A DNA stretch of 64,000 nt from Byssovorax sp. (GTDB lineage: Bacteria; Myxococcota_A; Polyangia; Polyangiales; Polyangiaceae): contig JANYGI010000179.1 in assembly GCA_025362495.1 (NCBI GenBank), positions 1 through 64,000 on the forward strand, read 5' to 3'. Below are positions 3,529 to 16,483 of the stretch, one piece after another. The notes under the pieces were generated by a model, which worked only from the letters and a program-made list of their open reading frames with translations, made no database searches and was not told the DNA's origin. The position numbers were made by a program, and so were the translations under genes. How positions within the stretch are numbered: position 1 is the stretch's first letter; every line of letters starts with the position of its first letter.

Positions 3529-6129
3529 GTGCGCCATTCCTCCACGATTTGCCGCTGGATCGCGCCTGTTCTCTTCGCCCTCGTGGCGGCGCCGAGCGGC
3601 GAGGCGGCGGCGTTCGTCTGGCCCAACGTGCCAGAGCAAGTCGAGAAGGCGCTGACCTCGGGGGACGTGAGCGAGCGGCGCCTCGCTGCCGGCCGGCTCG
3701 CGGATCTGCCGCCGGAGATCGCGCTGCGGCTGATCCCGCCGGCGCTCGGCGATCCCGACGTCGAGGTCCGGCTCCGCGTCGCGCAGGCGGCGATCGCGCG
3801 GCGGATGGCGAAGGCCGGCGACGCGGTGATCGGGTGGCTGAGCGAGAGCGATCCCCGGATCCGGCTCGCCGCGTGCGACGTGATCCGCGCAGCGCCCACC
3901 GATCGCAGCGTGATCGCTCTCGGCCGCGTGCTCGGCGATCCCGAGCCCCACGTGCGCCTCGCCGCCGCCGCCGCGATGGGCGGATCGGCGCTCCCCGAAG
4001 CCGTTTCGCCGCTGCTCGGGCACCTCGACGACGGCTCGCCCGAGGTGCGCGAAGAGGTCGCGCGGGCGCTCGGGCGCATCGGCGATCCGCGCGGCGTCGT
4101 CCCGCTGATCGGCAAGGTGCAAGACTCGGTGGCCGACGTGCGCAAAACGACGGCGCGGGCGCTGGGTGAGCTCGGCGATCTGCGGGCAGCAGGAGCGCTG
4201 ATGCTGGCGCTCCAAGATCCCTCGGCCGAGGTGCGGCTCGAGGCCGTGGGCGCGCTTGGCAAGCTGCGCTCCGACGAGGCGACGCCGGCGATCGCGCCGC
4301 TGATCGAGGCGTCCGCCGGCGAGGGCAACGGCGCGCCCGGCGGCGGGCGATCGTCGTCGGCGCAGGGCGCGGGCGCCGCCGAGGTGCGGGCCGCGGCGCT
4401 GCGCGCGCTCGGCCGCATCGGCTCCGAGGCAGCCGTGAAGATCCTCGTCGGCGCGCTCGCGAAGGACGATCCCTCCGCGGCGCGATCCCCGGTGCGCGAC
4501 GCCCTGGTGGCGGCAGGGAAGCCGTCCGAGGCCGCGCTGATCACCGCGCTCGGCAGCGGGACGTCGACGGCGACGGCCGCGGGCGCCGCGCTCGTCCTCG
4601 GCGCGCTGCGGTCCGACGAGGGCGCGAAGGCCATCGTCCGCGCGATGCAGCGAGGCACCGTGCCGCTCCGCGCCGGCGTGCGCGCCCTCGCGCAGATCGG
4701 CTCGCCCACGGCCCTCCCGACGGTGCTCGAGCTCTTCGACGATCCCGATCCGACGACGCGTAAAGACGCCATTCGCGCCGCGGCCTCGCTGCTCGATCCG
4801 GCGCAGATCGACGGGCGCGCGGTCGATCCCGCGAGCGCCTCGCTCCGCGACGCGAGCACGCCGATCGACGAGAAGATCGAGCTGGTCCGGCTGCTCGGCC
4901 GCACCGGGGCGCCGCGCGCCGAAGCGGTGCTCTTGCCGCTCGTGAGCGCGAAGCTGCCCGCGCTCCGGCTGGCGGTGATCGAGGCGCTCGGCAGCCTTCG
5001 TGTTCCGATGACACCAACTGCTGCAAAGGCTGCGAATCAAGGCAAATCAGAGGCGTCGCAGCTCGCCACCGCGCTGCTCGCGGCGCTCGACGACGAGTCG
5101 CCCGAGGTGCGCCTCGGCGCGGCGACGGCGCTCGCGCACGTGGGTGGATCCGCGGTCGCGGAAGAGCTGCTCCGGCGGCTCGCCGTGGCGGCGGAGCAGG
5201 ATCGGAGCGCGCTCGGGATCGCCATCTCGGGGACCCTCGCGCGCAGCGACGACGCCGCGCTCGCGGCGAAGGTGCGCGCGGCCTACGCGACCGCGCCCGA
5301 ATCGGCGCGCGACGCGCTGATCGAGGGGCTCGGTCGCATGCGCGGACCCGACGCAGGGCGCGCGCTCGAGGCGATCGCCGCCGGATCGATCGACGATCGC
5401 CGCAAGGTGGCCGAGGCGCTGGCGGGCCACGCGGAGATGGAGGCGTCGCTCCGCCGGCTGGTCGCCGACGTCGATCCCGGCGTGCGCGCCAACGCCGCCT
5501 GGTCGCTCGGGACGGTGGGCGCGAAGCCGAGCCTCGCTGCCCTCACGGCGCTCACGGGCGATCCCGACGTCGCCGTCGCCGGCAACGCCGCGGCGTCGCT
5601 CGGGCGCATCGCGGGGCGCACGGCGGCCGGCGGCGAGGTCGGGAAGACGCTGTGCTCGGCGCTCGGCGACGCGCGGCCGTACGTGCGCGCCAACGCGCTC
5701 CTCGGCCTCTCGATCGCCGGCGCGACGTGCGAGGCGAGCACCGCGTCGGATCTGCTCGGGCGCGATCCCTCGGAGTCGGTGCGCCTCGCGGCCGCCGATT
5801 ACCTCGCGCGGCGCGTGGTCGGAGCCGCCGCCGTCGACGCCGACAAGCGCGCGCTCCTGCGCTGCGCGAGCGAGGAGCGCGACGCCCGCGTGGCCGCTCG
5901 CTGCGCGCGCCCGGCGCCCGTCACCAAGTCCGACGCGAAGGTCGACGACATCGCCGTGTACGTGGTCCCCGAAGGGCGCCGCGCCCCCGAGCCGCGCGCG
6001 CCGTTCGCGCTGGTTCGCGCCGACGGGCTGATGCGGCTCGGCGTCGCGGATCGTCGCGGCGAGATATTCGAGACGGCGGCCCCGGCGGGCGTCATTCGCC
6101 TCGCCGTCCCCGCAGCGCTCGCGCGCTAG
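3529..6129 (+). CDS. Exported HEAT-repeat protein
   Basis: An 866-residue protein with a GTG start. The signal peptide (about residues 1-28, ending near GEAAAF) is followed by some 20 HEAT/PBS-lyase-type repeats. These are about 31 residues each and carry the recurring pattern DPxxxVRxxAAxALGxIG, for example around residues 78, 140, 170 and 205. The last ~60 residues are non-repetitive (VYVVPEGRRAPEPRAP). HEAT solenoids are protein-binding scaffolds; the presence of a signal peptide puts this one in the periplasm or on the surface. No partner can be named. The gene is uninterrupted, and the long antisense frames over it are codon-bias shadows. Confidence 0.85.
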   Translation: MRHSSTICRWIAPVLFALVAAPSGEAAAFVWPNVPEQVEKALTSGDVSERRLAAGRLADLPPEIALRLIPPALGDPDVEVRLRVAQAAIARRMAKAGDAVIGWLSESDPRIRLAACDVIRAAPTDRSVIALGRVLGDPEPHVRLAAAAAMGGSALPEAVSPLLGHLDDGSPEVREEVARALGRIGDPRGVVPLIGKVQDSVADVRKTTARALGELGDLRAAGALMLALQDPSAEVRLEAVGALGKLRSDEATPAIAPLIEASAGEGNGAPGGGRSSSAQGAGAAEVRAAALRALGRIGSEAAVKILVGALAKDDPSAARSPVRDALVAAGKPSEAALITALGSGTSTATAAGAALVLGALRSDEGAKAIVRAMQRGTVPLRAGVRALAQIGSPTALPTVLELFDDPDPTTRKDAIRAAASLLDPAQIDGRAVDPASASLRDASTPIDEKIELVRLLGRTGAPRAEAVLLPLVSAKLPALRLAVIEALGSLRVPMTPTAAKAANQGKSEASQLATALLAALDDESPEVRLGAATALAHVGGSAVAEELLRRLAVAAEQDRSALGIAISGTLARSDDAALAAKVRAAYATAPESARDALIEGLGRMRGPDAGRALEAIAAGSIDDRRKVAEALAGHAEMEASLRRLVADVDPGVRANAAWSLGTVGAKPSLAALTALTGDPDVAVAGNAAASLGRIAGRTAAGGEVGKTLCSALGDARPYVRANALLGLSIAGATCEASTASDLLGRDPSESVRLAAADYLARRVVGAAAVDADKRALLRCASEERDARVAARCARPAPVTKSDAKVDDIAVYVVPEGRRAPEPRAPFALVRADGLMRLGVADRRGEIFETAAPAGVIRLAVPAALAR

Positions 6130-6139
6130 TCAGCGCCGA

Positions 6140-7873
6140 TCAGCGGCGCTGGTGGCCCATGTCCTGGCGTGAGCGGGGCTTCACGGCGGGCCCCGATCGC
6201 AGCCGATCGATGCTCTCGGTCGACTCGCCATGGGCCGCGAGATCCGCGGCGGCGACCTCGATCGCGAGCTGGAAGATTTCGGTGCGGGCGAAGCGACCGG
6301 CGCGGCCCGTGGTGAGGCGCGGGAGCACGGCGACGATGCGCTTCATTCCGTCGGCGTAGCGGCGCGAGATCGCCAGGCGCTCGATCAGCGGCTCGAGGAA
6401 ATCGGCGACGGCGGCGGCGCGATCGCGCGCGCCCTCGCAGGCCTCTTTCATCGGCTCGAGGAGCAGCAGCGTCCAGAGCACGGTGTCGTCGAGCGGACCG
6501 CCCTCGTTGGTGCGGCGATCGATGTAGTCGAGCAGCCGCCACACGCGGCGCCCCGGCCCCTCTTCCTCGCCATCGTCGTAGAGCAGCGCCGAGAGCTCGG
6601 GGAGCAGCACGTCGAGCACGCCTGTCTCCCAGGCGAGGAAAATCGTCCGGCGTGCCTGGCCGCCGCGCAGGAGCCGCATGATCTCTTCCGAGAGGCGAGG
6701 CCGCGCGGCCAGCGCCAGCGCCTCGCGGCAGAAGACGATCGCGTCGTACACGTCGGGGGTGATGCCGAGGTCGAGGCGACCCGCGAATTTGAGGGCGCGG
6801 AGGATGCGCACCGGATCCTCGCGGAAGCGCGTCTCGGGATCTCCGATGGTGTGGACGACGCGGCGGCGCACGTCGTCCATGCCGCCGACCCAGTCGAGGA
6901 TCTGGTTGTGCTCGAGGTCGTAGAACAGCGCGTTGATCGTGAAATCGCGGCGATACGCGTCTTCCGGGGCCTCGCCGAAGACGTTGTCGCTTTTGATGAG
7001 CAGCTCGGCGCCGTCGTCGTCTTCCTTCGGGCTCTTCCGGAAGGTCGCGACCTCGATCACCTTGCCGCCCTGGAACAGCACGTGGACGAGGCGAAAGCGC
7101 CGGCCGATGATCCGCGAGTTGCGGAAGAGCTCGCGGACCTGCTCGGGCCGCGCGCTCGTGGCGACGTCGAAGTCTTTCGGGCGGCGATCGAGGAGCAGAT
7201 CGCGCACGCAGCCGCCGACGAGATACGCCTCGTAGCCGTGGCGAACGAGGCGGCGCAGGACCTTCTGCACGTCGGGATCGATGCGCGCTTCGTCGAGGGC
7301 CACGTCGTGGCGGCCGGGCTCGTTGCCGGCGTACGTCGGGCGAACGATGACGCCGCCGGGCGAGCTCGGGCTCGGGCTCGGCACGCGGTCGCGGTCCCGG
7401 TCGCGGTCGCCGCCGCGATCGCGATAGCGGGGACCGTCGTCGCGCGAGCGGTGGCGCGAGGAGGGGGCCTGCGCCTGCGCTTGGGCCGGGGCCACGCTGC
7501 GCGCCTTCAGCGCGGGCGGGGCGCCCTCGGCCGCCGTGTCGGGCGGGAGCGGCGACACGTCGTACGCGGGGAGGTCCGAGACCTCGTACTTCGGCAGGTC
7601 GGAGGTCTCGTACGACGGGAGGCCGTCAACGCGGGGGAACGAGGTCCGCGCCGAGCGACGGCGAGGAGACGGGGGCGGCGCGGCAGGCAGCGCCGCCGGG
7701 TCGGAGACGACAGGCAAGATGATGGGCTCGCTGTCCACAAGCGCGCCGACGAGCGGCACGATGGGGGACGAAAAGGGGCCTTCCGGCCGCGCGACGTCCA
7801 CATTGGCGTCGCCTGCGGCGGGAATTTCGTGATGGGGGATGGGGGCCTTACGACCCATAGGGCTCAACCGCAT
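6140..7873 (-). CDS. pcnB: Poly(A) polymerase / tRNA nucleotidyltransferase family protein (PcnB)
   Basis: A class II nucleotidyltransferase. Using the ATG at 7873 it has 577 residues. GGCVRDLLL (about 220-228) and the catalytic DFD (234-236) define the polymerase head. The RRDFTINALFYD and RILRALKFAGRLDL segments are typical of bacterial PcnB and CCA enzymes. It adds AMP to RNA 3' ends, giving poly(A) for mRNA decay or CCA on tRNA. The first ~190 residues are an extra low-complexity region with YETSDLPKYEVSDLPAYD-type repeats and an Arg-Asp dipeptide stretch (RDRGGDRDRDRDR), plausibly RNA- or protein-binding. The frame is open to 8059, but the upstream part has no ribosome site and an unnatural composition, so I place the start at MRLSPMG. 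PcnB versus CCA-adding activity cannot be told with certainty. Confidence 0.85.
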   Translation of the reverse strand: MRLSPMGRKAPIPHHEIPAAGDANVDVARPEGPFSSPIVPLVGALVDSEPIILPVVSDPAALPAAPPPSPRRRSARTSFPRVDGLPSYETSDLPKYEVSDLPAYDVSPLPPDTAAEGAPPALKARSVAPAQAQAQAPSSRHRSRDDGPRYRDRGGDRDRDRDRVPSPSPSSPGGVIVRPTYAGNEPGRHDVALDEARIDPDVQKVLRRLVRHGYEAYLVGGCVRDLLLDRRPKDFDVATSARPEQVRELFRNSRIIGRRFRLVHVLFQGGKVIEVATFRKSPKEDDDGAELLIKSDNVFGEAPEDAYRRDFTINALFYDLEHNQILDWVGGMDDVRRRVVHTIGDPETRFREDPVRILRALKFAGRLDLGITPDVYDAIVFCREALALAARPRLSEEIMRLLRGGQARRTIFLAWETGVLDVLLPELSALLYDDGEEEGPGRRVWRLLDYIDRRTNEGGPLDDTVLWTLLLLEPMKEACEGARDRAAAVADFLEPLIERLAISRRYADGMKRIVAVLPRLTTGRAGRFARTEIFQLAIEVAAADLAAHGESTESIDRLRSGPAVKPRSRQDMGHQRR

Positions 7874-7994
7874 GGAAGGACCCTGGGAGGGGTCTTCGGC
7901 TGGAAGTGGAAGCGGGGCCCGCGACCGCGGAGCCCCGGGAGGGGGACCGGCGTCGACTGGTTTGAACCAGCGTCGGCGCGTCACCCTCGGGAAA

Positions 7995-8015
7995 GGCGGA
8001 CCGAAAACGTCCGCC
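7995..8015 (-). other. Perfect hairpin in the pcnB leader
   Basis: A 7-bp stem (GGCGGAC/GTCCGCC) closes a 7-base loop about 120 bases ahead of the pcnB start. About 50 bases closer to the gene is a second inverted repeat, CTGG-TTCAAA-CCAG. The pair has a superficial tRNA look, but the cloverleaf does not close. It could be a transcript-level control element or nothing. Confidence 0.3.
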
Positions 8016-8283
8016 TGAGCTATGGAGGGGTGCGTAAACACCCTACTCCTCCAGCCCATCTAGCAGGGCGTTCCCGAAAGCGCAAAGACAACCTACGGCT
8101 CAGATGTTCATTCCTGCCGCTGCGGGCAGCGGCGGTCCGGATCCGCGCGGCGTCGCCGACGACCGGCCCCGGAAGGCGTGCTCGGTGGAGACGCCTGCGA
8201 GGGAGCCGGCGCGGGCGCGACGGGGCCGGGCCGTCGTCGCGCGGGGGCGCCGGCTCGACCGTCGCGGAGCCGCGATCGGTGGC

Positions 8284-8835
8284 CTACTTGTGCGTGGTGA
8301 TCACGCCGCAGCCGATCCGGCCGCCGGCGTTGCCGGACGGCTGGCCGCCGTCGTCCTGCTTCTCGTGAACGATGATCGACCGGCCGAGGAACGACGCGGG
8401 ATCACCCTCTTTCAGGTTCGCGCCGAGCACGACAACGTCGGTCGAGCCAGTGCCGTCAGGGCCGATATCGATGTTGCCGAGATCCCCGAGGTGGCGGTCC
8501 GCCGCCGGGGGCAGCGCGTGCGGGTGACCCTGGGGATTGAAATGGCCGCCCGCGCTGGACCCGTCGGGCGCGCTGCAATCGCCGTTCTCGTGCACGTGCG
8601 TCGCGACCTTGCCCGGCGGCGCGCCCGCGACCTGGACCTTCACCTGGACCCCACCGGGGACCTCGGTGAACGTGGCCGCCCCCGTCAGCTTCGAGCCGCT
8701 CTTCGCGGCCAGCGGAACATCGACGCTCATCGCCGAGCCGCCGTGCGTCGCGTCCGCAGGGGGTGAGGTCGTGCCTCCGCAGGCGACGAGCGCGAGCGGG
8801 GCAATCAGGACCAAGGCAGCACATTGACGCTTCAT
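8284..8835 (-). CDS. sodC: Cu/Zn superoxide dismutase, lipoprotein
   Basis: A 183-residue protein that converts superoxide to O2 and H2O2 in the periplasm or at the cell surface. The lipobox is at LVACG (Cys19). All metal ligands expected for the family are present: His80 and His82 (HVHENGDC), bridging His98 (GGHFNP), a His in GHPH, His115 and Asp118 (RHLGDLG), and His157 (IVHEKQDD). The structural disulfide pair Cys87/Cys176 (GCGV) is also kept. The length fits bacterial SodC. It is transcribed in the same direction as pcnB but 400 bases upstream of it, so probably independently. Confidence 0.95.
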   Translation of the reverse strand: MKRQCAALVLIAPLALVACGGTTSPPADATHGGSAMSVDVPLAAKSGSKLTGAATFTEVPGGVQVKVQVAGAPPGKVATHVHENGDCSAPDGSSAGGHFNPQGHPHALPPAADRHLGDLGNIDIGPDGTGSTDVVVLGANLKEGDPASFLGRSIIVHEKQDDGGQPSGNAGGRIGCGVITTHK

Positions 8836-9117
8836 CGGGGGGTCCCTCTATCGTTTCGTTCGAGCCGCTCTGAACCGAGCGGCGGTGTCCGGCGCGTGGA
8901 GCATGATCCAGGCCGCTCGCCTGGGCGCGACGTGCCCTGTGCTGTAACGTCGGCGCACGCTCGGCGGCGGCGAGGGCCGTCGAGGTCGCATCGGCCGACG
9001 GCGCCTTCACGCCACGGCGAGGCGCCGTGCACCGCGACCCGAGGCGCGCTTCACGACAGGCACGGTGATTGCCAATGCGCAGATTCGCGCATCCTCGACG
9101 AGATCCCCGATCACCCC

Positions 9118-9561
9118 ATGACCTCGCCGATCCTCGCCTTTCAGAGCACTGCAGAGCGCCTGATCCTCGACGCGGCGAAGGGGCGCAGGGACGCCGCAGA
9201 GATCGCCGACGCCGCAGAGCACGTATTTCAACGCCTGCACGATCACCTGGTCATGCTCATCGGGACGATCGGGTTCAGGACGTTGCTGGCGCGCTCGATC
9301 AAGCTCGCGAGGCCCGGGGCGCGAGCGCTCGAGCGGATCGAAGTGCGGCAAGAGGGCACGCTCGCAGGGCTCGCCGAGGCGCTCTCCCACGAGACGCCGG
9401 AGGAGGCCCTCGCCGCGCCGGCGATGTTGCTGGCCCGGTTCCTCGATCTGCTGGCGGCGTTCGTCGGGGATGACCTCGCGCGCCACCTCGTCGACGAGGC
9501 GACGCGGGCGCGGCCGGCGCTCGAACGTGGAGACGATCAGGGGAGCACGGAGGATCGATGA
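9118..9561 (+). CDS. Unknown protein co-translated with KaiC
   Basis: A 147-residue, mostly helical acidic protein (MTSPILAFQSTAERLILDAAK). It has no signal peptide, no membrane segment and no motif I recognise. Its stop overlaps the start of the KaiC gene by four bases (ATGA), so the two are translationally coupled. That placement suggests a partner or regulator of the KaiC-like protein. The frame is open upstream to 8824, but that part is of poor composition and the ATG at 9118 is the sensible start. Confidence 0.7.
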   Translation: MTSPILAFQSTAERLILDAAKGRRDAAEIADAAEHVFQRLHDHLVMLIGTIGFRTLLARSIKLARPGARALERIEVRQEGTLAGLAEALSHETPEEALAAPAMLLARFLDLLAAFVGDDLARHLVDEATRARPALERGDDQGSTEDR

Positions 9562-10529
9562 ACGGGAACAAGGTCATCATCGGTCGTCTCCCGTCGGGCG
9601 TCCCCGGGCTCGATACGGTGATGGGCGGCGCCGTCCCCGAGTATTCGTTCAACCTCATCGTCGGCGGACCGGGGACGGGCAAGACGACGCTCGCGCACCA
9701 GATCGCCTTCTCGTCGAGCACGCCCGAGCGACGGACGCTGTTCTTCACGGTGCTGGGCGAGTCGCCCCTCAAGATGCTGCGGTATCAGCAGCAATTCTCG
9801 TTCTTCGACGGCGCCAAGATTCCTGATCTCGTCCGCTTCGTCAACCTCGATGAAGAGGCTATGGAGAGCGGCTTCAGCGCCGTGCTGACCGCGATCGAGC
9901 GCGAGGTCGAGGCCTTCTCGCCGAGCGTGGTGATCATCGACTCGATCCGGACGCTGATCCCGAGCCCGTGGATCATCGATCGTCAGGCGCAGAGCTTCGT
10001 GCAGCGCCTCGCCTTGCTGCTGACGAGCCACCGCGCGACCACGTTCCTCATCGGCGAGTACACCGATGAAGAGGTCAGCACGAGCCCGCTCTTCGTGGTG
10101 GTGGACGGCATCCTCTGGCTCAGCCAGGTCGTCGAGCGCAACTCGGTGATCCGCAAGCTCCAGGTGATCAAGCTTCGCGGCCAGAGCCCGATGGGAGGCC
10201 TGCAGAGCCTCCGGATCTCGAATGATGGACTCGCGGTCTTCGCGCGCATGCCCGTCCCCTCCCCGCGATGCACGGGAACGTCACCCGGCCCCCGGGGCGG
10301 ACCTCCTCGGGGCTCGTCGAGCTCGATCGGATGCTGCACGGCGGGTTCCTCGTGGGCGATTCGATCCTCGTCGCCGGTCCCACGGGCACCGGCAAGACGC
10401 TGCTCAGCACCCAGTTCGTCGCGGCGGGCGTCGCCAGGGGCGAGACCGCCGTCATCGCCGTGTTCGAGGAGCAGCCCGGTCGTTACCTGGAGCGGGCGCG
10501 CAGCCTGGGGATCGATCTCGCGAAGATGA
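9558..10529 (+). CDS. KaiC-type ATPase, first (CI) domain; frame lost near base 10260
   Basis: RecA-fold KaiC family. Residues 1-235 form the CI domain: FNLIVGGPGTGKTTL (Walker A, about 36-43), LGESPLKML at the site of the catalytic Glu pair (only one Glu kept), and VVIIDSIRTL (Walker B). From about base 10260 this frame leaves the homology, and its remaining ~90 residues are out-of-frame translation of the second domain. The true continuation is one base back, in the frame of 10268-11035. KaiC proteins are ATP-driven hexamers that act as timers or signalling hubs. It starts at an ATG overlapping the preceding gene. The locus is either one kaiC with a one-base deletion in a C-rich stretch (GTCCCCTCCCCG, 10254-10265) or a sequencing error. 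Confidence 0.8.
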   Translation: MNGNKVIIGRLPSGVPGLDTVMGGAVPEYSFNLIVGGPGTGKTTLAHQIAFSSSTPERRTLFFTVLGESPLKMLRYQQQFSFFDGAKIPDLVRFVNLDEEAMESGFSAVLTAIEREVEAFSPSVVIIDSIRTLIPSPWIIDRQAQSFVQRLALLLTSHRATTFLIGEYTDEEVSTSPLFVVVDGILWLSQVVERNSVIRKLQVIKLRGQSPMGGLQSLRISNDGLAVFARMPVPSPRCTGTSPGPRGGPPRGSSSSIGCCTAGSSWAIRSSSPVPRAPARRCSAPSSSRRASPGARPPSSPCSRSSPVVTWSGRAAWGSISRR

Positions 10530-11035
10530 TCGCCGACGGGCGCGTGCGGATACTCTATCTGCGACCGGTCGATCTCTCGGTGGACGAGACGCTCCACGCC
10601 ATCCTCGCGCTGGTGGCCGAGGTGCGGGCCGAGCGCGTCGTCATCGACTTTCTCTCGGGCTTCGAGCTGGCCGTGGCCCCTTCGTTTCGCGAGGATTTTC
10701 GCGAGTCACTCTACCGGACGATCGCCACGCTCACGGCCACCGGGATCACCGTGATGATGACCGTGGAGGTGCTCCAGTCGTTCACCGATCTGCGCTTCAG
10801 CCCGCACGAGATCTCGTTCCTCGCCGATAACCTCATCATCCAGCGCTACGTCGAGATGGAGGGGCAGATCCGGCGCGTGCTCGCGGTGCTCAAGATGCGC
10901 GGGAGCGCCCACGACAACCACCTTCGACTCTACACCATCGCCAGCGATGGGATCAACATCGGTCCTTCGCTCGAGGGGTATCGCGGCATCCTCACGGGGA
11001 TTCCAGGCCGCGTCGTGAAGCGTGCAAAGAGGTGA
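10268..11035 (+). CDS. KaiC-type ATPase, second (CII) domain
   Basis: A 255-residue KaiC CII domain: SILVAGPTGTGKTLL (Walker A, about 36-44), the catalytic pair EE in VFEEQPGR (67-68), RVVIDFLSGFEL (Walker B), and the KaiC-typical C-terminal strand IIQRYVEMEGQIRRVLAVLKMRG. Where cyanobacterial KaiC has the phosphosites Ser431-Thr432 (ISTITD), this protein reads ISFLAD: Ser kept, Thr replaced by Phe. There is no proper ribosome site before the ATG at 10268, so it most likely belongs to the same polypeptide as the CI half. The gene ends six bases from the end of the facing histidine kinase gene. Confidence 0.8.
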   Translation: MHGNVTRPPGRTSSGLVELDRMLHGGFLVGDSILVAGPTGTGKTLLSTQFVAAGVARGETAVIAVFEEQPGRYLERARSLGIDLAKMIADGRVRILYLRPVDLSVDETLHAILALVAEVRAERVVIDFLSGFELAVAPSFREDFRESLYRTIATLTATGITVMMTVEVLQSFTDLRFSPHEISFLADNLIIQRYVEMEGQIRRVLAVLKMRGSAHDNHLRLYTIASDGINIGPSLEGYRGILTGIPGRVVKRAKR

Positions 11036-11041
11036 TTCGCC

Positions 11042-11839
11042 TCAGCCCATCTCCGCGCCGCCCTGGCGGTCCTGGTCCGGGCAGATCGGGAGCGTGACGT
11101 GAAGAGTGCTGCCGGCGCCGGGAGCGCTCTCCGCCCGGATGGTGCCCCCGTGGGCGAGGACGATGCCGCGGGCGATGAAGAGGCCGAGCCCCGAGCCAAG
11201 CTGGGCCGTCTGACGCGCCTGCCAGAAGCGATCGAAGACGCGCCCCAGGTCCTCGGCGGGGATCCCCGGGCCGGTGTCGTGGACCGAGAGGCGCACGTCG
11301 ACCTCGCCGCGCTCGACGTGGACGACGATGGAGCCGTGCTCGGGCGTGAATTTCACCGCGTTGCCGAGGAGGTTCGTCAGCACCTGCGTCATCCGATCGC
11401 GATCCATGAGCACGATCGCGCCCGCCGCCGCCGCGTCGATCACCGTCTCCAGCCGGATCGATTTCCGGGAGGCGAGAGGCAGCATCATCTCGACCACGTC
11501 GCGGATCAGCGGCGCGATCGCGCCCGGCTCGCGATCGACGAGGAAGCGGTCGGCCTCGATCTTCGCCGTGTCGATCAGATCGGCGAGCAGGTGCTGCATG
11601 TACCCCGCGGTGCGGCGGATCCGCGCCAGGTGCCCGGCCTCGTGCGGCGCGGCGCCCATGGCGCCCTTCTCGAGCAGCGCGAGGCTGAAGAGGATGGTCT
11701 GGAGCGGGCTGCGGAGATCGTGGGAGACGGTGGAGAGCAGCTCCTCGCGCGCCCGCGCCGCGCCGACGGCCTTCTGGTAGTGATCGACGCGCTCGATCGC
11801 GACCCCGATGCGGCCCCCGATCTCGTGGAGGGTGGTCAC
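11042..11839 (-). CDS. Histidine kinase, DHp and ATPase half
   Basis: About 265 residues, read from a GTG that overlaps the stop of the upstream PAS-GAF frame by four bases (GTGA). STVSHDLRSPLQTI contains the phospho-accepting His. The ATPase domain shows NLLGNAVKFTP (N box), HDTGPGIP (G1), VFDRFWQ (F box) and GSGLGLFIARGIVLAHGG (G2), all intact. The first ~20 residues (EIGGRIGVAIERVDHYQ) are the closing helix of a GAF domain whose body lies in the other frame. So this is either the C-terminal half of a frame-broken sensor kinase or a coupled separate subunit. Facing kaiC tail to tail, it is a candidate output partner, as SasA is for KaiC in cyanobacteria; that link is inference. Confidence 0.75.
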   Translation of the reverse strand: MTTLHEIGGRIGVAIERVDHYQKAVGAARAREELLSTVSHDLRSPLQTILFSLALLEKGAMGAAPHEAGHLARIRRTAGYMQHLLADLIDTAKIEADRFLVDREPGAIAPLIRDVVEMMLPLASRKSIRLETVIDAAAAGAIVLMDRDRMTQVLTNLLGNAVKFTPEHGSIVVHVERGEVDVRLSVHDTGPGIPAEDLGRVFDRFWQARQTAQLGSGLGLFIARGIVLAHGGTIRAESAPGAGSTLHVTLPICPDQDRQGGAEMG

Positions 11840-12720
11840 GTCTCGAGAGGATCGAGGGCGCCGCGGCGACGCAGCACCGTGAGCACGGCGACGAGCTGGT
11901 TGGGGCTCCGGAGCGGGATCGAGAGGCCCCCCGCGAAGCCCAGCGCGTGGATCTGCCGCGCCGTCGCGTCGTCGGCGGCGAGGCTGCGGGCGCGCAGGCG
12001 GGCGATCGCGTGCGCGGCGTCGGGCGAGAGCACGCGGGGCTCGAGCACCGAGCGCGCGGCGACGCCGGGCGCTTCGAGGAGCTCGATCGCGCACACGTCG
12101 ACGAGGCGGCCGACGAGCAGCCGCGCCACCCCCTGGCTCATCGCCGCGACGTCGAGCGAGGCGCCGAGCAGGCCGCCGGACTCGGCGATGATCGCCAGGC
12201 GATTGCGCGCGGACTCGGCCTCATCGACGAGCTCCTGCATGCGGACACCGGCGACGACGAGCCGCTCGTTGATCCGGCGAGTCTCCTCGGCGAGCTCGCG
12301 ACCGCGCTGGATCTCGCGGGCCTCGTCGGTGCGGTCACGCGCCTCGATCACCAGGCGCCGCGGCCCCTCGCCGTCGTCGAGCGTCGGCCACACGCAGAGC
12401 GTGACGACGCGCTCGCCGCGGCGCGAGTGGAGCCGCTCGAAGCTCGGCGATTGCCGCGCCGCGCCCGTCGCGTACACGTCGTCGAGCAGCGCGGCGCCGG
12501 CTCCGGGGGGCAGCTCGGGGAACACGTCGACGAACCGGCGGCTCACCGGCGATCGCGCGTCGTCTCCGCAGAGCAGCTCGACGAAGGCCGGGTTCGCGCC
12601 GAGCACGACGTGCAGCGGACCTTCCGTGACGAGCAGCGGAGTGGGTGATCGCTCGCCGAAGCAGCGGAGCGCGCGCAGAGCAATGGACGGAGGCTCACCC
12701 TCCTTCGGGGCACCATGCAT
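11836..12720 (-). CDS. PAS-GAF sensor half of the split histidine kinase
   Basis: A 294-residue protein with a PAS-like domain (about 20-140, PLLVTEGPLHVVLGANPAF), a helical linker (about 140-175) and a GAF domain (about 180-294, ending RRRGALDPLET). The GAF domain lacks its last helix, which is encoded one base out of frame in the next ORF. There is no signal peptide or membrane segment, so the sensor is cytoplasmic. The stop TGA sits in GTGA, the start of the kinase half, allowing re-initiation. Three readings are possible: genuine two-subunit kinase, -1 frameshift fusion, or one-base deletion. Confidence 0.7.
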   Translation of the reverse strand: MHGAPKEGEPPSIALRALRCFGERSPTPLLVTEGPLHVVLGANPAFVELLCGDDARSPVSRRFVDVFPELPPGAGAALLDDVYATGAARQSPSFERLHSRRGERVVTLCVWPTLDDGEGPRRLVIEARDRTDEAREIQRGRELAEETRRINERLVVAGVRMQELVDEAESARNRLAIIAESGGLLGASLDVAAMSQGVARLLVGRLVDVCAIELLEAPGVAARSVLEPRVLSPDAAHAIARLRARSLAADDATARQIHALGFAGGLSIPLRSPNQLVAVLTVLRRRGALDPLET

Positions 12721-12873
12721 GTGGCTCCGAATTCTGCCATGACGGGGCGAGCATCGGTATCGGCGGTGTCACCAGAATCGCTTTGATTCAAGGCGATCGA
12801 GCGCGACAGTGGCCGACCAGGGGCGCGTTCGCCGCCGCCCGAGCGAGCCAGTCGTCAAGGCCGCTCGACGGGC

Positions 12874-13764
12874 TCAGCCGGCGCCGGGGAGCGACGCTCG
12901 CAGCGCCATCCGGAAGGCCTCCATCGAGGAGAACCGCGACTCCGGGGCCTTCGCGAGGGCGCGTCGCACCACGGCGTCGAGCTCGCCCGAAGCCGTCGCC
13001 CCGAGGAGCGGCGGCGGCGGCGCGTGCGCGTGGCTCCGGGCGATCTCGGCGTACTCGCCGGTGAAGGGCGCGTGCCCGGCGAGCATCTCGTAGAGCACGA
13101 CGCCGAGCGAGTAGATGTCGGCGCGGGGATCGGCGGGGGCGCCGAGCGACTGCTCGGGGGCCATGTACTCGGGGGTGCCGACGACGCGCGGCGGTGCTTC
13201 TTCGGGATCGCCGGGGAGGTGCGAGAAGCCGAAATCGAGGACCTTCACCTGCTCGCGGCCGTCGGGCGCGTGCACGAGGAAGAGGTTCTCGGGCTTCACG
13301 TCGCGGTGAACGACGCCGGCCGCGTGCGCCGCGCCGAGCCCGAGCGCGGCGCCCTCGGCGATGCGCGCCGCGCGGGCCGCGCCGAGCGCGCCCACGAACG
13401 AGAGCGTGTCGGCGAGATCGAGGCCGACGAGCAGCTCCATCACGAAGAAGCGCGAGCGCTCGCCCTCCCCTTGCGTCGGCGCGCCCTCGATGGCGAGCAC
13501 GTTGGGGTGACGGATCCGCGCCGCGGCCACGGCCTCGCGATCGAAGCGCGCGCAGAGATCGGGATCGTCGCGGTGCTCGTCGCGCAGCACCTTGATCGCC
13601 ACGCGCGCTCGCGGCGCGAGGCGCCTCGGCGAGCGCCGCTCGTCGCCGACCTCGGCCAGGTACACCTGCCCGGTGCCGCCGCTGCCGAGGAGCTGGATCA
13701 CGCGGTAACGCCCGCCCACGACCGTGCCGACGAGGCGGGGCGGGGGGGCGGAGGACGTTCGCAT
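12874..13764 (-). CDS. Ser/Thr protein kinase (Hanks type)
   Basis: About 296 residues, essentially a lone kinase domain: GSGGTGQVYLAE glycine loop, VAIKVLRDEH with the ATP-binding Lys, HRDVKPEN catalytic loop, DFGFS metal-binding loop and GTPEYMAPEQ activation end. There is no membrane segment or sensor domain after residue 285, so it is a soluble short-form kinase. An insert after the glycine loop (GDERRSPRRLAPRA) lengthens the N-lobe. The start is placed at ATG 13764 (MRTSSAPPPR); a TTG three codons upstream is less likely. Such kinases are numerous in myxobacteria; no substrate can be assigned. Confidence 0.9.
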   Translation of the reverse strand: MRTSSAPPPRLVGTVVGGRYRVIQLLGSGGTGQVYLAEVGDERRSPRRLAPRARVAIKVLRDEHRDDPDLCARFDREAVAAARIRHPNVLAIEGAPTQGEGERSRFFVMELLVGLDLADTLSFVGALGAARAARIAEGAALGLGAAHAAGVVHRDVKPENLFLVHAPDGREQVKVLDFGFSHLPGDPEEAPPRVVGTPEYMAPEQSLGAPADPRADIYSLGVVLYEMLAGHAPFTGEYAEIARSHAHAPPPPLLGATASGELDAVVRRALAKAPESRFSSMEAFRMALRASLPGAG

Positions 13765-13841
13765 CGAGCGCAACTCCTAGCACCACCGCGGCGATTTCTC
13801 ATGGTCGTCGTGCGGCCGCGCCGCGACGCACCGGCGCAAGC

Positions 13842-14801
13842 TCAGGTCGGCGAGGGGCCCTCGAGCTCGGCGTCGACCTTCACGGTGAGGCCGCGCAGCG
13901 ACGGAAACGAGAGCCGCTCGGCGAGGGCCTGGATCGGATCGGCGGCGCCCCCGAGATCGTGCGCGTAGGCCCTGGCGATCGCGCGCGCGAGCTCGCGGCC
14001 ATCGCGGCCCGCGGCGCGCTGATCGCGGAGCGTCATCCCGCGCGCGCGCTTCGCGAGGCGCGCCCCGCCTTCGCCGAGCAGCAGCGGCACGTGCGCGAAC
14101 GCGGGCGGCGTCGCGCCGAGCAGGCGAGCGAGCAGCGCCTGTCGCGGCGCCGACGCGGCGAGATCGGCCCCGCGCACCACCTCGGTGATGCCCATCGTCA
14201 CGTCGTCGACGACGACGGCGAGCTGGTACGCGAAGACGCCGTCGCCGCGCCGCAGCACGAAATCGCCCGTGATTTCCGCGACATTTTCCTCGAGCCGACC
14301 GAGCACGGCGTCCTCGACGACGACCGTCGACGCGCGCCCCTCCGGCACGGCGAGGCGCACCGCGGGAGGCCGCCGGAACGCGCGCGACCGCATGCCGTGA
14401 GGGCGACACGTGCCCGGGTAGCGCGGCCCCTCGTCGCCCGCGTGCGGCGCGCTCGCGGCCCGCGCGATCTCGGCCCGCGAGCAGTCGCACAGGTACACGT
14501 GATCGCGCGACGCGAGCCGGTCTACCGCATCCGCGTAGAGCGCGACCCGCTCCGATTGCACGTAGGGCGAGGCCGGCCCGCCGACGTCCGGCCCCTCGTC
14601 CCACGCGACGCCGAGCCAGCGTAGATCGTCGAGGATCGCCGCGCGCGCCGCGGGGATCACCCGATCACCATCCAGGTCTTCCATGCGGAGCACGAGGCGC
14701 CCGCCGCGCGCCCGCGCCGCCGCAGCGCAGAAGAGCGCGGCGGCCGCGCTGCCGAGGTGGAGATCGCCGGTGGGCGAGGGAGCGAAGCGACCGCGGTACA
14801 T
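13842..14801 (-). CDS. gluQ: Glutamyl-Q tRNA(Asp) synthetase
   Basis: A 319-residue protein, the length of GluQ enzymes rather than full glutamyl-tRNA synthetase: the catalytic half without the anticodon-binding domain. It starts MYRGRFAPSPTGDLHLG, containing the HIGH-type motif (HLGS). The Zn ligands are YLCDC and YPGTC. The KMSKS loop is degenerate (ARLAKR), as in GluQ. It attaches glutamate to queuosine 34 of tRNA-Asp. The start ATG at 14801 is chosen because homology begins at once; the frame stays open far upstream but overlaps the next gene. Confidence 0.92.
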   Translation of the reverse strand: MYRGRFAPSPTGDLHLGSAAAALFCAAAARARGGRLVLRMEDLDGDRVIPAARAAILDDLRWLGVAWDEGPDVGGPASPYVQSERVALYADAVDRLASRDHVYLCDCSRAEIARAASAPHAGDEGPRYPGTCRPHGMRSRAFRRPPAVRLAVPEGRASTVVVEDAVLGRLEENVAEITGDFVLRRGDGVFAYQLAVVVDDVTMGITEVVRGADLAASAPRQALLARLLGATPPAFAHVPLLLGEGGARLAKRARGMTLRDQRAAGRDGRELARAIARAYAHDLGGAADPIQALAERLSFPSLRGLTVKVDAELEGPSPT

Positions 14802-14824
14802 CCGCGGCGGAGCATAGTGCCGAT

Positions 14825-15286
14825 TCAGGCGGTGAGGCGCGGCCCGGGCGCCGCGAACACCCGCTTCCACACCGGGTAGCTCCAGAGCAGGAACACCAGG
14901 TTGGTGGTGATCGCGCGGGCCAGCACGGCGGTGGCGGGGACCAGCGGGAACGCGCTCGCGACGCCGTGGTAGAGCGCCGCGTTGAGCACCAGCGCGACGG
15001 CCTCGGCGGCGACGAAGAGCGCCGCCTGACGCCGCAGATCCCCGCCGCGCGCGCGGAAGGCAAAGTGCTTGTTGCCGAAGAACTGCACGACGGCGCCGAC
15101 GAGCAGCGCCGGCACGTTCGCGGCCTTCGGCGACGCGTGGAGCACGCCCGTCGCGAAGGCGATCACCGTGAGATCGGCGAGCGTCGCCGCGCCGCCGGTG
15201 AGCGCCGAGCGGGCGAAGGTGGTGAAGCGCGTGAGCGCGGGGGCCTTGGCGGACGGCGTAGGCTGCATCGTGGACACCATGTCCAT
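14825..15286 (-). CDS. GtrA-family membrane protein
   Basis: A 153-residue protein with four predicted membrane helices (about 28-48, 55-72, 88-106, 118-138). It shows the GtrA pattern: FARSALTGGAATLADLTVIA at the N-terminus, QFFGNKHFAFR before the third helix, and TNLVFLLWSYPVWKRVF at the end. GtrA proteins help move lipid-linked sugars or act in cell-surface polysaccharide assembly. It lies 23 bases upstream of gluQ in the same direction, so possibly one transcript. The start could be ATG 15286 or 15280. Confidence 0.85.
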   Translation of the reverse strand: MDMVSTMQPTPSAKAPALTRFTTFARSALTGGAATLADLTVIAFATGVLHASPKAANVPALLVGAVVQFFGNKHFAFRARGGDLRRQAALFVAAEAVALVLNAALYHGVASAFPLVPATAVLARAITTNLVFLLWSYPVWKRVFAAPGPRLTA

Positions 15287-15460
15287 CGAGCTGTGCAAGC
15301 CCCGTGACGAGGGCGTTCCATTCGAGCGAACGCCTGGAATCGACGCTTGCCCAAGATTCGACGGTCCCGGGCCGCGAGCGCCGCTTCGCGCTGCGCGCCC
15401 GTGTTCGCACGGCGAATCGGGTTGAGCCGCAGCCACGAGACGGCCAAGGTGACGCCCGAG

Positions 15461-16483
15461 ATGCCCCAGGACGAGCCCCTCGCCTCCCCCGCCTCCGCCT
15501 CCGTCGAGAGCTCGATGACCGACGACGACGGAGGCGGGCCGCCGGGCTCCGACGCGCCCGAGCCGTTCCGGTGGAAGCTCAACTTGGTGCTGTTCCTCGC
15601 GACGGTGGCCTCGGTGTTCCTCACGGGCGCGCGCTACGCCGACGAAGGGCCGGGCCCCGCCGGGTGGCGCGACACGCTGCGATCGCTCCCGAGCGGCTGG
15701 TCGTTCGCCGTGCCGCTGCTCGCCATCCTGCTCACGCACGAGTTCGGCCACTACATCGCCGCGCGCATCCACAAAGTCGACGCCTCGCTGCCGTTCTTCA
15801 TCCCCCTGCCGCGCTTCAGCCCCTTCGGCACGATGGGCGCGATCATCTCGATGCGCGGGCGCATCCGCTCGCGCGACGCCCTGCTCGACATCGGCGCCTC
15901 GGGCCCGCTCGCCGGCCTCGTCGTGGCCTTGCCGGTGCTGATCGTCGGGCTCGCCCACTCCCACGTTGGCCCCGCGGTGGCACACGGCACCCAGGAAGGA
16001 CAAAGCCTGCTCTACATCGCCTTGAAGCGGATCGTCCTCGGGCCCATCCCCGACGGACAGGACGTCTTCCTCGGGCCGATGGCCTTCGCCGGGTGGACTG
16101 GCCTCTTCATCACCGCCCTCAACCTGATCCCGATTGGCCAGCTCGACGGCGGCCACATCGCCTATGCCCTCTTCGGGCTGCGGCAGAACCGGTTCGCGCG
16201 CGTGCTCCACGCCTCGCTCCTCGGCATGTTCGTGCTCAACTTCGTGCGCTTCATGATCCCGATCGCCAGGGCGCACGCGTGGAGTCAGTCGGGGCAGGCC
16301 TTCGGGAACGCCCTGCCCTGGCTGGTCTGGTACGGGATGCTTCACCTGATCATGCGCGGCGGTGGCCGGGACCACCCGCCGACCGAGCCGGGCGAGCTGA
16401 GCCCGGTGCGCAAGGCGATCGCGCTGTTCTCGCTGGTGCTGTTCGTGCTGCTCTTCATGCCCACGCCGATGGCGCAGTACTGA
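15461..16483 (+). CDS. Site-2 protease family membrane metalloprotease (M50)
   Basis: About 340 residues. A Pro/Ala/Ser-rich cytoplasmic N-terminus of about 45 residues is followed by multiple membrane helices. The Zn motif HEFGH lies in LLTHEFGHYIAARIHK and the third ligand Asp in NLIPIGQLDGGHI, both hallmarks of site-2 proteases. The FMPTPMAQY C-terminus follows a last helix. These enzymes cut membrane-bound anti-sigma factors and other proteins inside the bilayer. The start is taken at ATG 15461, since residues encoded upstream are basic and non-homologous. The gene is divergent from gtrA. Confidence 0.88.
   Translation: MPQDEPLASPASASVESSMTDDDGGGPPGSDAPEPFRWKLNLVLFLATVASVFLTGARYADEGPGPAGWRDTLRSLPSGWSFAVPLLAILLTHEFGHYIAARIHKVDASLPFFIPLPRFSPFGTMGAIISMRGRIRSRDALLDIGASGPLAGLVVALPVLIVGLAHSHVGPAVAHGTQEGQSLLYIALKRIVLGPIPDGQDVFLGPMAFAGWTGLFITALNLIPIGQLDGGHIAYALFGLRQNRFARVLHASLLGMFVLNFVRFMIPIARAHAWSQSGQAFGNALPWLVWYGMLHLIMRGGGRDHPPTEPGELSPVRKAIALFSLVLFVLLFMPTPMAQY

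Follow-up and report, generated by a model that had tools for sequence, protein, structure and literature searches.

Comparative analysis showed that a small helical protein of 147 residues, P147, precedes or overlaps the gene of a distinct clade of two-domain KaiC proteins in nine phyla and evolves in step with it. The partnership of P147 and kaiC is wider than the window (the whole 64 kb stretch of contig C115 that was analyzed, from a genome assembly of 10.8 Mb in 240 contigs that is about 97% complete), while the convergent layout of three genes found there, with a histidine kinase (HK) facing kaiC, is local. From these comparisons we lean towards the view that P147 is a dedicated regulator that forms, together with its KaiC, the core of a KaiA/KaiB-independent KaiC module. 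The features of the window locus are:

9118-9561, plus strand: P147, 147-residue helical protein (ORF; relatives in profiles A1/A4; AlphaFold2 pLDDT 90.2)
9558-9561, plus strand: ATGA, TGA stop of P147 overlapping the ATG of kaiC (read directly)
9558-10250, plus strand: CI domain of kaiC (PF06745, E 5.7e-23); the ORF continues out of frame to 10529
9756-9761, plus strand: CI catalytic-Glu pair, here Gly-Glu (residues 77-78, S. elongatus KaiC numbering; alignment)
9774-9794, plus strand: clade motif MLRYQQQ (translation; exact in 74 of 79 clade members)
10245-10256, plus strand: frame break in the CI-CII linker (ORF translations, homology, codon model)
10256-11035, plus strand: CII domain of kaiC in a second frame (PF06745, E 4e-40; homology from about 10256; own ATG at 10268)
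10814-10819, plus strand: Ser-Phe at the Ser431/Thr432 sites of CII (alignments)
11042-11841, minus strand: HisKA and HATPase_c part of the HK (E 1.9e-12 and 6.5e-30; ORF 11042-12094)
11836-12720, minus strand: sensor part of the HK in another frame, PAS (PAS_4, E 1.6e-5) and probably GAF-like

The 147-residue protein, which the initial annotation had described as coupled to kaiC, is encoded directly before it on the same strand, and the ATGA overlap suggests that the two genes are translationally coupled. The annotation of kaiC as one gene at 9558-11035 held for the family of its product but not for its reading frame: both domains score above the PF06745 cut-off and the equivalents of K52, D145, K294 and D378 are kept, so that the product is a two-domain KaiC, but it is encoded in two frames and not in one ORF. 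The facing kinase was recovered on the opposite strand, its stop lying 6 nt from that of kaiC, but this gene is also split into two frames, and neither break had been noticed before. The GAF-like domain of its sensor part is a probable assignment, the single match behind it being a sub-threshold one to Autoind_bind. The flanking genes (window 3529-16483) encode a HEAT-repeat protein, a poly(A) polymerase/CCA-adding-type enzyme and a Cu/Zn superoxide dismutase, and further a Ser/Thr kinase, a Glu/Gln tRNA synthetase-like protein and an M50 peptidase.

P147 had been described as a protein of unknown kind, and the family searches agreed with this. No NCBIfam family was matched, Pfam returned just DinB_2 with an E value of 0.23, below its cut-off, and the window protein matched neither the KaiA nor the KaiB families. 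When 72 relatives were scanned singly, one Pfam match (E 0.001) and matches of single relatives to two NCBIfam models (E 0.001 and 0.005) were obtained, all of them mutually unrelated, and none of the 72 matched KaiA (PF07688) at E 0.01. The P147 profile gave no match to PDB sequences at E 10. An AlphaFold2 model, computed from 24 sequences (pTM 0.82, pLDDT as listed above), has helices at residues 9-19, 26-67, 69-73, 85-89, 94-116 and 118-130. A Foldseek search with this model yielded no usable match (best E 1.9), which does not prove a new fold, and with VIA-align a best Z of 3.9 was reached among unrelated helical proteins, with no KaiA chain among the matches listed. Over 72 sequences G117 is invariant, and G49, G52, R59, L111, L112, L120 and W129 are found in at least 90%; window P147 has Thr in the W129 column and is therefore a divergent member of the family. 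One relative, L050, which carries a run of N and a break in P147, was left out of the P147 alignment A1. Judged by sequence, P147 is the founder of an unnamed protein family.

A search for P147 across the class (289 genomes, window genome included) gave 26 matches in 23 genomes, of which 23, counting the window, precede kaiC, two (L042 and L048) have no kaiC nearby and one (L059; E 7.8e-4, no KaiC) was rejected as a chance match. Extension to the phylum (377 genomes) added four matches (L072-L075) and the divergent L076, all before kaiC; since only ten candidates were scored per genome and known genomes were missed, the resulting 11 of 377 is not a frequency. Two further candidates, L077 and L078, were rejected because of their scores (E 6e-4 and 8e-4) and the lack of KaiC in either, and L069 (E 7e-4) was taken as a chance match.

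The reverse test started from KaiC. An alignment of KaiC alone was scanned through the contigs of GTDB genomes, at least 553 stretches with a relative were obtained and the best 80 were kept. A P147 homologue lies upstream of kaiC on the same strand in 79 of these best 80 (E 2e-13 or better), which answers in the affirmative whether the small protein accompanies this type of kaiC, as the initial annotation had proposed to check. The contig of the eightieth locus, L152, begins 55 bases before kaiC. Seven of the 80 loci were known before (six from the P147 profile and one from the class search), which leaves 72 of 73 when they are removed. The KaiC sequences used as query had been taken from P147 loci, and the count covers the best 80 of at least 553 stretches, with remoter members outside its scope. 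In the 79 loci with P147 the two genes overlap in 34, by exactly 4 nt in 21 of these, while 31 are spaced by 0-20 nt, 12 by 21-70 nt and two by 164 and 540 nt. Relatives show the same two genes at similarly short distances, which makes the arrangement in the window more than chance.

By the titles of their records, the best 80 loci are spread over nine phyla: Myxococcota, Acidobacteriota, Chloroflexota, Planctomycetota, Pseudomonadota, Gemmatimonadota, Verrucomicrobiota, Armatimonadota and Binatota, the phylum names being in part our own assignment. Four of these phyla include records not marked as metagenome-assembled genomes, or MAGs (Corallococcus and Polyangium; Zavarzinella and Paludisphaera; Edaphobacter and Silvibacterium; Variovorax and Janthinobacterium). 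MAG bins may combine several organisms: the record of L121 bears the title Betaproteobacteria but clusters with Acidobacteriaceae. Across 75 loci the tree distances of P147 follow those of KaiC with a correlation of r 0.89, and the highest value of 1000 shuffles was 0.19. Two tandem copies of P147 before one kaiC were observed twice (G578:C24, 27769-28819; G591:C12, 209380-210652). In L042 (8194-12987) P147 stands without kaiC, divergent from a CheB-CheR-PAS-HK gene.

The specificity of the pairing was analyzed in whole genomes. For 20 of the best 80 loci the genomes were searched for PF06745 and P147, and the 83 strongest PF06745 rows (E 1.5e-21 or better) were used, weaker rows (E 1.4e-12 and worse) being dropped as partial. 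These 83 rows correspond to 41 two-domain KaiC genes and one single domain. P147 is located upstream of 21 of the 41 and absent from the other 20; no P147 was detected in the available upstream sequence of these 20 other KaiC genes or of the second KaiC of the window genome (best E 0.2). The same 20 genomes gave 26 P147 matches, 23 inside KaiC operons, among them two second tandem copies, and three outside. In an IQ-TREE phylogeny of 42 rows a branch with 100/99 support separates 20 P147-KaiC from 21 KaiC without P147, thereby including 20 of the 21 P147-paired proteins, and the CII domain of the window is placed on the P147-KaiC side. An [ML]LRYQQ-like stretch is present in 20 of 20 P147-KaiC versus 0 of 21 others. 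When 25 class genomes were searched for the DNA pattern of KMLRYQQQ, the five positives were five of the eight genomes with a P147 match, versus none of the 17 without one; of the other three P147 genomes two carry an orphan P147 and in G268 the KaiC motif is a variant.

Residues were compared in an alignment with a PDB KaiC sequence as reference, in which the 79 clade members are the best 80 loci less L111, whose KaiC is too short. Gly77, Glu78, Glu318 and Phe432 are shared by all 79; position 431 varies, with Ser in 53 members, as in the window, and Ala in 26. None of the 21 other KaiC has Gly77 or Phe432, yet 16 of them lack Glu77 and 20 lack Thr432. Non-cyanobacterial KaiC outside the clade often lacks Glu77 and Thr432 too, and what is specific to the clade is just the Gly and the Phe at these sites. 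The stretch 104-125, the B-loop of CI on which KaiB docks, is shortened from 22 to 15 residues in all 79 members and in the window; among the 21 others, 5 have this shorter form. Together, Gly77, Phe432, the shortened CI loop and usually MLRYQQQ provide a sequence rule that separates the P147-KaiC clade from clock-type KaiC, and the window carries all marks of the clade, including the upstream P147. The KaiC proteins of L036, L043, L051, L072 and L074 have a C-terminal extension of about 60 residues that by eye looks winged-helix-like.

The window genome contains a second kaiC operon (L010, 5726-9232, contig C218), composed of a receiver gene, kaiC and a GAF-HK gene. The receiver gene overlaps kaiC by 4 nt and thereby occupies the upstream slot that is taken by P147 in the window, which suggests that in the wider group this slot holds an input to KaiC.

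The kinase proved to be a less constant neighbor than P147. A HisKA-type HK is encoded within 2.5 kb downstream of kaiC in 45 of the 64 loci whose downstream sequence extends for 2 kb or more, the nearest one always on the same strand. As a control, the upstream stretch contains an HK in 9 of 54 loci, and 384 kb of the window genome yielded 9 HK hits; with the upstream rate as expectation and the relatedness of the loci ignored, a binomial test gives a P of about 3e-21. Of the three-gene co-occurrence proposed before, the near-constant P147-kaiC pair was confirmed, while the kinase occurs in part of the loci and then downstream on the same strand. Convergence, previously taken as a feature of the module, turned out to be local: of the 26 Myxococcota loci that were fetched with 1.3 kb or more of downstream sequence, 21 have a same-strand HK, two a convergent one and three none downstream. 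Both convergent loci belong to one genome, and in two of the three loci without a downstream HK (L036 and L051) an HK is found on the far side of P147. In ten downstream kinases that were scanned, HisKA was detected in ten, HATPase_c in nine (the tenth is cut), PAS-family domains in nine and a receiver in five; the kinase of L171 has an N-terminus without PAS match, and that of the window carries PAS_4. Of the 19 loci without such a downstream HisKA-type HK 18 were listed, with two HWE or HisKA_2 kinases, one receiver gene and one heme oxygenase with bacteriophytochrome, and in many of the 18 there was no recognizable signaling gene. The heme oxygenase and bacteriophytochrome genes of L154 (5946-8533) represent a possible light input beside P147-KaiC. 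As the HK is frequent but varied and not obligatory, P147 and KaiC are regarded as the core and the HK as a companion.

In cyanobacteria KaiC is the clock ATPase. The protein of S. elongatus passes through a phosphorylation cycle at Ser431 and Thr432, KaiB docks on the B-loop of CI and KaiA on the A-loop of CII. The KaiC of the window resembles that of the S. elongatus KaiABC system in its two domains, the Lys of both Walker A and the Asp of both Walker B motifs, Glu78 and Glu318, and differs from it in Phe432, Gly77, the shortened KaiB-docking loop, the presence of P147 beside kaiC and the lack of KaiA and KaiB matches. As the initial annotation had assumed, neither KaiA (PF07688) nor KaiB (PF07689) was matched in the window genome. 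Of 40 genomes drawn from the best 80 P147-KaiC loci, 33 gave no KaiB match; in six of the seven KaiB-bearing genomes KaiB lies on the contig of another KaiC without P147, the seventh being G583. Gly77, Phe432 and the shortened CI loop imply that the Ser431/Thr432 clock cannot run as known in P147-KaiC, which is probably also unable to dock KaiB.

Operons of kaiC and HK without KaiB were already described, together with three kaiC contexts (PMC3164672, in its accessible portion). The 'second' and 'third' contexts of that report are similar to the loci analyzed here, with kaiC near or before an HK, no KaiB and, in the third, few phosphosites. P147 is unnamed in the same portion, although a legend entry 'HP, hypothetical protein' may mean that it was drawn there uncommented, and 9 of the 10 kinases scanned here differ in having PAS N-termini. 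In its kaiC-Nt_HK group, an HK with a KaiB-like N-terminal domain follows kaiC (PMC3164672); no KaiB match was obtained at E 0.001 in the ten kinases, a comparison made without the published consensus. Myxobacterial KaiCs are reported to lack KaiA and the B-loop, with KaiB in few cases and at most one phosphosite in the majority, and the report calls for modulators 'yet to be identified' (accessible part of PMC11832031). The KaiC analyzed here is similar in the lack of KaiA, in a B-loop that departs from the canonical one and in the small number of phosphosites, whereas a partner gene is not described in that part of the report. KaiC1 and KaiC2 of Methylorubrum extorquens provide another parallel as non-cyanobacterial KaiC that tune a stress response, with temperature-dependent UV resistance (PMC12573494, as far as accessible). 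As an upstream partner P147 is not described in the literature searched, which included the accessible portions of PMC5520375, PMC12573494 and PMC10173096 and was mostly outside subscription journals and bioRxiv.

If P147 is a dedicated regulator, this helical protein, made together with KaiC, would bind the KaiC ring and set its ATPase activity or assembly state. The residues peculiar to the clade sit in CI, where MLRYQQQ-FF lies beside the altered catalytic-Glu pair and the shortened KaiB-docking loop, and P147 would therefore most likely bind there. The sensor HK would then read or set the state of KaiC. With Phe432, the role of KaiC would be that of a switch driven by ATPase activity, or of an energy/stress sensor, rather than that of a Ser431/Thr432 phosphorylation clock. 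Counter-evidence comes from P147 genes without a nearby kaiC (L042, L048, and the three matches outside KaiC operons in the 20 genomes), from the 19 of 64 loci without downstream HK and from the window copy itself, which is frame-broken as assembled. The main rival, which we consider unlikely, is a folding or assembly chaperone that aids the ring or covers CI during synthesis and has no part in signaling. A coupled upstream position and strict pairing suit such a chaperone equally well, as does a small helical protein without known fold match, but the well-studied KaiC proteins are not known to depend on a helper of this kind, and the tandem copies in G578 and G591 and the orphans, one of them beside a CheB-CheR-PAS-HK gene, look more like regulation. 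A genuine timer or clock in which P147 stands in for KaiA or KaiB appears improbable, although KaiC is the clock ATPase of cyanobacteria, Ser431 is retained in two thirds of the clade and the downstream genes of L154 include a bacteriophytochrome. A single Ser431 site sufficed for rhythm in work cited by PMC11832031 (accessible part). Phe432 in every member, Ala431 in 26 of 79, the shortened KaiB-docking loop and the lack of a KaiA or KaiB family match for P147 speak against a clock. Of two hallmarks of the KaiABC oscillator, KaiA plus KaiB gave no match in the window genome, and the phosphorylatable pair Ser431 and Thr432 is replaced by Ser and Phe in the window KaiC. The timing module suggested by the initial annotation thus received no support from the sequence.

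Returning to P147 as a regulator, we put forward more tentatively that it represents a third class of KaiC regulator, distinct from KaiA and KaiB, and that P147-KaiC(-HK) is a switch or timer set by ATPase activity, lacking a two-site phosphorylation cycle and widespread in at least nine phyla, mostly in non-photosynthetic bacteria. According to the accessible parts of the respective reports, the function of myxobacterial kaiC has not yet been studied (PMC11832031) and a timing function of such KaiC is still to be shown (PMC3164672). A near-obligate coupled partner offers a handle on the role of KaiC in bacteria without KaiA and KaiB. Many soil bacteria have this KaiC, and its pairing with P147 points to an unrecognized control of KaiC. 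The two-protein system is open to purification, ATPase assays and structure determination, and the gene of the partner is accessible to deletion in cultivable hosts, for instance Corallococcus or Variovorax.

In the window copy of kaiC, the frame of ORF 9558-10529 carries CI and the frame of ORF 10268-11035 carries CII. Similarity to KaiC in the latter frame extends back to about 10256, which places a one-base frame change near 10245-10256, in the CI-CII linker. The kinase is divided between a PAS ORF (11836-12720) and a HisKA/HATPase ORF (11042-12094); at its break a TGA stop overlaps a GTG, and a coupled two-gene pair joined by this GTGA overlap is possible. Among the best 80 of at least 553 KaiC stretches, 79 have one kaiC frame of at least 440 aa, the sole exception being L111 (the record of L049), in which the ORF stops after 376 codons; the kaiC of L037 is likewise frameshifted, at a different place. 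It is conceivable, if rather unlikely, that the module in the window is a decaying pseudogene that lost the frames of kaiC and HK and left P147 alone intact. Two adjacent genes are broken where nearly all kaiC relatives read in one frame, and the kinases of L038 and L045, which match both halves of the window HK and are not its close kin, are single open frames. In addition, P147 has a scattered distribution, with matches in 2 of 59 genomes, window genome counted, and is kept without kaiC in two family members. Against decay, the Walker motifs are retained in both parts of kaiC, and similar switches were found elsewhere in the assembly. In 384 kb, made up of the window and 320 kb from elsewhere in its genome, a home-made codon model flagged 14 frame switches, seven of them inside the window and the kaiC break among these; switches at the ends or starts of stretches had been left out, as had those with a stop no more than 60 nt behind them, which are ordinary gene overlaps, so that the HK break, which a stop follows by chance, was uncounted. 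Homology was consulted for the kaiC and HK breaks alone. Since frame switches recur across the assembly, decay and an indel from sequencing or assembly are equally likely, and the contig may be error-prone. Production of the window KaiC as separate CI and CII chains, or by programmed frameshifting, is hardly credible: CII has its own ATG at 10268, but the CI frame ends only at 10529, well beyond the CII start, and the single ORF in 79 of the best 80 relatives led us to reject two chains. Programmed frameshifting was rejected likewise, as no canonical slippery heptamer was seen by eye and the relatives are single-frame. Other frameshift-like switches in the window are located at about 211, 825, 16960, 23106, 23776 and 58005.
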